From assembly GCA_029821195.1 (NCBI GenBank), contig JALGTU010000053.1, forward strand, positions 1-33,742: DNA of 33,742 bases, written 5' to 3'. The position numbers were made by a program, and so were the translations under genes. Below are positions 9,064 to 9,799 of this stretch, in pieces. Source of the stretch: Candidatus Zipacnadia bacterium (lineage in GTDB: Bacteria > Armatimonadota > Zipacnadia > Zipacnadales > Zipacnadaceae). Within the stretch, counting starts at the first letter, position 1. Each line of letters starts with the position of its first letter. A model generated the notes under the pieces. That model was not told the DNA's origin. It worked only from the letters and a program-made list of their open reading frames with translations, and made no database searches.

Positions 9064-9117
9064 CCGACGGTAGCCGCCGGGCACCACGATTCAGCCAAAA
9101 AAACTTTCGCCAGGGGC

Positions 9118-9146
9118 TTGACATATCTCCAAGAATGTGCTATAAT
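9118..9146 (+). promoter_or_regulatory. perfect-consensus sigma-70 promoter
   Basis: TTGACA at 9118-9123, exactly 17 bases, then TATAAT at 9141-9146. Both hexamers and the spacer match the housekeeping consensus completely. The start of transcription should be near 9152-9154. The closest protein gene on this strand, rpsT, has its own promoter 300 bases further on, so this one most likely drives the structured RNA described next. Confidence 0.85.
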
Positions 9147-9149
9147 CAT

Positions 9150-9163
9150 GTACAAGCTTGTAC
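9150..9163. promoter_or_regulatory. 14-bp perfect palindrome at the transcription start
   Basis: GTACAAGCTTGTAC is fully self-complementary and sits 4-17 bases downstream of the -10 hexamer, across the expected +1. This is a usual place for an operator bound by a dimeric repressor. It could instead form a small hairpin at the RNA 5' end, although with transcription starting inside it only part would be transcribed. No regulator gene is adjacent. Confidence 0.45.
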
Positions 9164-9370
9164 AGGTCTTGGCTGGCGACTCTATACAAAGCTCCATTGG
9201 AACCAGCAAACACAGCTTGAGATGTAACGGCGCTCGCCTCCTCATCAACGCCCAGGTTGAGTCGCCGGATCTGAACCGTCTACTAAATGCAGCGTGCATC
9301 ACAGACAGTAGACGGAGAAGTCCAGCCGAACTCTTTTCCGCCCCGAAAGGAGTTCGGCTGCTGTTTACTT
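9153..9370 (+). ncRNA. candidate structured non-coding RNA or long rpsT leader, class unknown
   Basis: From the consensus promoter to a strong hairpin there is about 215 bases with no credible gene. Pairings that can be read directly are: a closing helix CAGGTC 9163-9168 with GATCTG 9268-9273 (one G-U) continued by GGCGACTC 9175-9182 with GAGTCGCC 9259-9266; a hairpin CCGTCTACT 9276-9284 with AGTAGACGG 9307-9315 enclosing ATGCA/TGCAT; and a 15-pair hairpin at 9324-9359. A competing helix GCTGG 9172-9176 with CCAGC 9203-9207 overlaps the first, so two exclusive folds are possible. I see no signature of T-box, TPP, SAM, cobalamin, c-di-GMP, SRP, RNase P or 6S RNA. It may be a free small RNA or a cis-acting leader for rpsT. 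Confidence 0.5.
9324..9359 (+). terminator. 15-bp hairpin, possible terminator or attenuator
   Basis: AGCCGAACTCTTTTC pairs with GAAAGGAGTTCGGCT (one G-U) around the six-base loop CGCCCC. It is followed by GCTGTTTACTT, which is only moderately T-rich, so intrinsic termination here is plausible rather than certain. It would end the transcript from the consensus promoter before the separate rpsT promoter. Confidence 0.5.
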
Positions 9371-9426: not shown

Positions 9427-9456
9427 TTGCTTCTCCAGGCACCCCTGTGTTATAAT
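9427..9456 (+). promoter_or_regulatory. sigma-70 promoter of rpsT
   Basis: TTGCTT at 9427-9432, an 18-base spacer and a perfect TATAAT at 9451-9456. Transcription would start near 9463 and give a leader of about 65 bases containing the GGGAGAAAG ribosome-binding site. Confidence 0.65.
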
Positions 9457-9526: not shown

Positions 9527-9799
9527 ATGCCTCAGATCAAGGCGCGAGACAAGCACATTCGCCAGTCCGCCAGGCGGACGCGGCGCAATCGGAAACTAAA
9601 AGAACAGATCAAGTACGCAACCCGAGCGGCGCTGGACGCGGCGCGTGGCGGGGAGCAGGAAGAGATCGGAGCAGCACTCGCCCGGGCCTACAAAGCCATT
9701 GACAAAGCGGCGAAGGTAGGTACTTTCCACTCGCGGCGCAGTGATCGCAAGAAGTCGGTGCTGGCCCGGCAGGTGGCGCAACTTCAGGCTGCCGAGTAG
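9527..9799 (+). CDS. rpsT: 30S ribosomal protein S20
   Basis: The 90-residue basic protein begins MPQIKARDKHIRQSARRTRRN and has the helical, lysine/arginine-rich sequence of S20, including the late motif VGTFHSRRSDRKKSVLARQV that matches the family's G-x-x-H-x-x-x-A-x-R-K-K-S region. S20 binds 16S rRNA early in 30S assembly. The track's longer frame from 9287 is not used: the ATG at 9527 has GGGAGAAAG upstream and aligns with the family start. It converges with the PqqD-like gene, leaving 16 bases between stops and no clear terminator. In other bacteria S20 represses its own translation; whether the long upstream region takes part here is unknown. Confidence 0.96.
   Translation: MPQIKARDKHIRQSARRTRRNRKLKEQIKYATRAALDAARGGEQEEIGAALARAYKAIDKAAKVGTFHSRRSDRKKSVLARQVAQLQAAE

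Follow-up and report, generated by a model that had tools for sequence, protein, structure and literature searches.

A Candidate Stand-Alone Structured Small RNA Conserved in an Order of Candidatus Zipacnadia

Introduction

In Bacillus subtilis, the small RNAs RoxS and FsrA act on their targets via C-rich regions (PMC8216469). The C-rich small RNAs of the Firmicutes (RoxS/RsaE and FsrA; PMC8216469) and the RNA described in this paper have in common that they stand alone and, as predicted for most copies of the latter, expose C-rich regions which could pair with Shine-Dalgarno sequences. However, the Zipacnadia RNA has a different architecture with a long-range loop pairing, its C-rich loop is not present in every copy, and a relation to the Firmicutes RNAs was not indicated by the Rfam covariance models. 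It is also about twice as long as these RNAs. A further system for comparison is 6S RNA (RF00013), which is of about the same length, occurs in single copy, and likewise contains long-range pairing. 6S RNA forms a single long rod interrupted by a central bubble, whereas in the Zipacnadia RNA a hairpin at the 5' end is accompanied by two more hairpins and by a terminator of its own. With tmRNA (RF00023) and RNase P RNA (RF00010), the RNA shares a housekeeping-like distribution within the group.

Candidatus Zipacnadia is a class in the Armatimonadota, described from anoxic marine sediments (PMC10290634). A pattern of the RNA's terminator, scanned over named genomes, matched records of Candidatus Zipacnadia and Candidatus Zipacnadum vermilionense, among others, and the placement of the window in this class is based on these relatives. 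A literature search on structured RNAs in this phylum returned nothing relevant. The window, by which the whole stretch of 33,742 nucleotides analysed is meant, contains the RNA at positions 9153 to 9370; this and all other features are on the plus strand unless stated otherwise. The locus is almost certainly a real stand-alone RNA gene. In the reading that we favour, to which a probability of about 40% is assigned, it encodes a structured RNA of about 215 nt which stands alone, ends at an intrinsic terminator, is specific to Candidatus Zipacnadia and not contained in Rfam, and would act in trans on Shine-Dalgarno regions through C-rich loops.

Comparison to Known RNA Families

In the preliminary description of the locus, the RNA could not be assigned to a class. 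This still holds after a scan of the window and 15 relatives against Rfam 15, in which no family matched across the RNA at either gathering or permissive thresholds; there were only chance matches with scores far below gathering. Identity with 6S RNA was rejected: the RF00013 model matches a separate locus of the window's assembly (G000:C119) at 86.8 bits, and the structure differs. Identity with tmRNA was rejected as well, the window containing a separate tmRNA gene and the RNA giving no match to RF00023. This tmRNA gene is located at positions 1454 to 1810 of the minus strand and encodes the tag ANNQVALAA. The same applies to RNase P RNA, for which RF00010 identified separate genes in 11 of 11 genomes, while the RNA itself has no match to the model. 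RNase P RNA scores exceed 100 bits in relatives, whereas the assembly of the window gave only a weak and partial match (19.4 bits) at G000:C183:1799-1933, a site distinct from the RNA locus; this probably reflects a contig gap. The RNA is classified as a putative new family within a known kind, that of bacterial small RNAs with genes of their own, and its long-range loop pairing is unusual.

Promoter and Transcription Start

A promoter matching the consensus in all 12 hexamer bases with a 17-bp spacing had been noted upstream of the RNA, and it is present exactly as described at positions 9118 to 9146. The -35 element TTGACA (9118-9123) and the -10 element TATAAT (9141-9146) are separated by 17 nt, and the -10 element is of the extended type (TGCTATAAT). 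Within the 3 kb scanned around it, this is the sole site with 12 of 12 matches. In the 3.0-Mb assembly, the perfect pattern TTGACA-17-TATAAT was found at 19 sites, compared to none for the reversed pattern; a perfect match to the promoter consensus is accordingly meaningful in this genome. The other 18 sites of this assembly (G000) may belong to additional genes or RNAs with high expression.

A promoter of the type TTGACA/T-17-TATA precedes almost every copy of the RNA. For 34 of 37 copies, 10 to 12 of the 12 hexamer positions are matched with a spacing of 16 to 18 nt directly upstream of the RNA; for the remaining three, the 5' end was placed too far upstream by the model, and TTGACA is located at or just before that point. 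From its promoter, the RNA would be expected to be highly expressed and abundant.

Upstream of the -35 element, an A-tract (9097-9103) may serve as an UP-like element, and A-tracts at this site are also present in many relatives outside family f5. Following the -10 element, a perfect palindrome of 16 bp, TGTACAAGCTTGTACA (9149-9164), extends across the transcription start; it is possibly an operator or merely the 5' end of the RNA. In about half of the copies, a TGTNNA-like repeat is located 10 bp upstream of the start of the first helix. A role of this upstream repeat as an operator was considered and rejected; the other branch of the window's genus lacks the repeat.

Distribution and Gene Neighbourhood

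A DNA search detected the RNA in each of the remaining six genomes of the genus but gave no match in 54 further relatives. With a first covariance model built from the seven genus copies, full-length copies were identified throughout most of the order, on contigs different from those with rpsT, and a second model built from 24 copies extended this to 36 of the order's 41 genomes and to one class-level genome. Full-length copies normally occur once per genome, with E values down to 1e-51. Among the 255 phylum genomes searched with the second model, the remaining ones gave no copy, and a more permissive search of the genomes lacking a match did not change this result. The five genomes of the order without a full-length copy are 76 to 90% complete, and the genomes are mostly metagenome assemblies. 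A class-level match in G044 (E 0.001) is not preceded by a promoter and was treated as chance; matches of the model on the antisense strand were attributed to terminator palindromes or to chance. Single-copy structured RNAs which are near-universal in a lineage and have no Rfam entry are uncommon.

In the window, the RNA is followed by rpsT, the gene for ribosomal protein S20 (9527-9799; PF01649, 1.2e-16), which lies outside the RNA. The alternative put forward in the preliminary description was that the region forms a long regulatory leader of this gene, and the two are indeed adjacent on the same strand in all seven genomes of the genus, with the RNA behind a near-perfect promoter in each of them. 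However, the strong terminator of the RNA and a separate rpsT promoter intervene. This promoter, which had also been predicted before, consists of TTGCTT (9427-9432) and TATAAT (9451-9456) with a spacing of 18 nt (9427-9456 in total); it is conserved in the genus, and its -10 element is kept in seven of seven genomes. In addition, the adjacency to rpsT is confined to the genus: in the other genera of the family, RNA and rpsT are on different contigs, and the two are not close to each other in the rest of the order either. A leader function is thus very improbable.

Instead of a fixed downstream gene, the neighbours differ between the families and include a methyltransferase with rpsT, a member of the Mur-ligase family (folC-like), an ABC transporter, a GFO/IDH/MocA protein, MarR with FeoB, a radical SAM protein, and RNase P RNA. 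In the last case (L037, G009:C28), which belongs to genus g4, apparently Candidatus Zipacnadum, the RNA precedes the RNase P RNA gene by a few hundred bases, with both on one strand. The varying neighbourhood argues for a stand-alone gene rather than for an rpsT leader.

A small protein gene can practically be dismissed as an explanation. A few short reading frames exist, but none is common to the copies, the genus alignment contains single-base indels, and what is conserved is base pairing, in agreement with the earlier statement that the region holds no credible gene.

Structure of the RNA

The predicted RNA starts about 7 nt downstream of the -10 element and ends at the terminator tail (9153-9370). 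Its extent is supported by the covariance-model homologues and by a folding energy of -76.6 kcal/mol, compared to -61.1 +/- 4.9 kcal/mol in dinucleotide shuffles (z -3.2). In its overall architecture, a 5' hairpin (P1) is followed by the internal helix P3, which has the parts a and b and carries a C-rich loop at its top, then by the hairpin P2, and by the terminator.

P1 is formed by TGTACAGG (9159-9166) and TCTATACA (9181-9188); its consensus is UGUAUAGG/CCUAUACA with a mismatch in the middle of the helix. The apical loop CGCCTCCTC at positions 9235 to 9243 is followed by a conserved strand, CCCAGGTTGAG (9251-9261; consensus GCGCCCAGGCUGAG), which includes the 3' side of helix P3b and in which CAGGTTGAG is invariant in the window's genus. 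P2 (9276-9315) consists of a 9-bp helix of CCGTCTACT and AGTAGACGG (9276-9284 with 9307-9315) and an inner 5-bp helix, ATGCA/TGCAT (9287-9291 with 9295-9299), closed by a loop of 3 nt; two-sided changes were identified at several of its pairs. The intrinsic terminator (9323-9370) has the loop CGCCCC and a hairpin (9323-9360) followed by the T-rich tail CTGTTTACTT. The region of about 215 bases and the 9-bp hairpin with its inner helix were thus recovered as initially described, and so was the terminal hairpin, except that its stem comprises 16 pairs and not 15.

Conservation of these helices was analysed in a plain MAFFT alignment of 24 sequences, which was not fitted to the structure and in which five helices were scored. 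The helices were paired in 80% of the cells, compared to at most 41% for versions slid along the alignment, and the covariation score was 0.412, compared to 0.220 +/- 0.011 after shuffling and at most 0.122 for slid versions; since the helices were partly picked by scanning the same alignment for good registers, the comparison to slid versions is in their favour. The terminator stem showed two-sided changes at 14 of 15 pairs with 91% of the cells paired, P3b (helix 3) was paired in 83%, and P1 in 80% with two-sided changes at three pairs. A model-fitted alignment of 37 sequences, which leans towards the structure by construction, gave the same picture. When RNAalifold was used alone, the P1 hairpin was not recovered from the genus alignment, and only P3 and the terminator were kept from the larger alignment. 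P1 and the long-range pairing were first spotted by inspection and then analysed by pair counts or by exchange of the partner strands.

The predicted promoter and intrinsic terminator are conserved across the order together with the covarying helices, which agrees with the earlier proposal of an independently transcribed structured small RNA. The assignment as a stand-alone gene is based on this joint conservation, on the single copy, and on the lack of a fixed neighbour. With a structure backed by covariation, a consensus promoter, and defined ends, the expression, structure, and targets of the RNA are directly testable.

Possible Function of the C-Rich Loops

Most copies expose a C-rich apical loop of the type CCUCC or CCCCC. 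A C-rich apical stretch was identified in 29 of 37 copies, compared to 17.8 +/- 2.7 after shuffling of the segment, while a G-rich control gave none. The stretch is mostly unpaired, with a mean unpaired probability of 0.71 compared to 0.38 for the whole RNA. The loop of the window's copy resembles the anti-Shine-Dalgarno sequence of 16S rRNA. Terminator loops of the CCCC type are present in many copies and missing from nearly all members of family f5.

With these apical and terminator loops and the precedent of RoxS and FsrA, regulation by pairing with mRNAs appears as the likeliest single mechanism. The compact body of the RNA, composed of the P1 hairpin, the long-range pairing, P2, and the terminator, would present one or two C-rich loops; these would pair with purine-rich Shine-Dalgarno regions, so that the RNA would act in trans, and the pairing would block or modulate translation of the mRNAs, as by the C-rich small RNAs in Firmicutes. 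If this is the case, anti-Shine-Dalgarno regulation would be extended to the Armatimonadota.

Several observations argue against this mechanism. P1, the long-range pairing, and P2 are conserved beyond the needs of a bare antisense seed, eight of the 37 copies lack the C-rich stretch (L038, L043, L049, L052, and four copies from the window's genus), and Hfq was not detected in some families which carry the RNA. Hfq was identified in the window's genome and, in all, in 27 of 41 genomes of the order; families f2 and f4 and genus g4, where it was not detected, carry the RNA, and their genomes may be incomplete.

A role as the core of a ribonucleoprotein appears nearly as likely. Here, the RNA would be a lineage-specific housekeeping RNA which binds a dedicated protein, the ribosome, or RNA polymerase in a role like that of 6S RNA or further structured RNAs, and the C-rich loops would be protein contacts or a matter of composition. 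The order-wide occurrence in single copy, the consensus promoter, the conservation of structure in all parts of the molecule, and the absence of the C-rich loop from some copies are consistent with such a role. KH proteins of the KhpA/B type, identified in 41 of 41 genomes of the order, are compatible with it and not specific. However, a fixed neighbour gene hinting at a dedicated protein is lacking, and the sequence outside the helices diverges fast between families. A ribonucleoprotein core would represent a new lineage-specific housekeeping RNA.

Long-Range Pairing and Its Alternative Partner

In the preliminary description, a two-part helix closing the structure had been drawn between positions 9163-9182 and 9259-9273. 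Both pairings exist, one of 8 bp (GGCGACTC, 9175-9182, with GAGTCGCC, 9259-9266) and one of 6 bp (CAGGTC with GATCTG). However, the P1 hairpin was absent from that description, and the outer 6 bp of the long-range helix overlap with it. The interaction is better described as a pairing of the P1 loop with the strand following P3b, a pseudoknot relative to P1, than as a closing helix.

When cognate strands were compared to strands swapped between species, the pairing of the P1 loop had a mean energy of -15.2 versus -12.1 kcal/mol, a difference reached in none of 10000 permutations and in 7 of 2000 when one sequence per group was used. A second strand, P3a, competes with the P1 loop for the same bases of the downstream strand, and its pairing gave -13.5 versus -10.1 kcal/mol (0 of 10000; 6 of 2000 with one per group). 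In both cases, relatedness is not fully removed by the permutations, and the version with one sequence per group has only eight groups. Pairing of the P1 loop is favoured in family f2, in genus g3, and in most of g1 including the window, where the energies of the isolated strands are -22.9 kcal/mol for the P1 loop and -4.0 kcal/mol for P3a. P3a is favoured in f3 and f5, and both pairings are strong in g2.

Either an exchange of partners in evolution or a switch would explain these differences between lineages. As a conformational switch, the 3' strand (region 9259-9273) would pair in turn with the P1 loop and with P3a, the internal strand, with a ligand, a protein, or the target shifting the fold. 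Both pairings passed the swap analysis, and f5, g2, and most of g1 can form both on one strand with overlapping bases. Nevertheless, a switch is improbable as the main explanation: one pairing is weak in several lineages (f2, g3, and the window keeping to the P1 loop, f3 to P3a), the energies are those of isolated strands, and evolutionary replacement of the partner fits at least as well. It is somewhat less doubtful, while still unlikely, that the RNA combines the two roles as a lineage-specific housekeeping RNA, as central as 6S RNA is elsewhere, whose 3' strand pairs with the P1 loop or the internal strand, some lineages having fixed one pairing and others keeping both as a switch. That one strand has apparently changed its pairing partner between families is uncommon in the evolution of RNA structure. 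In two copies of genus g3, L038 and L041, an additional insertion of about 40 to 50 nt is located between P1 and P3.
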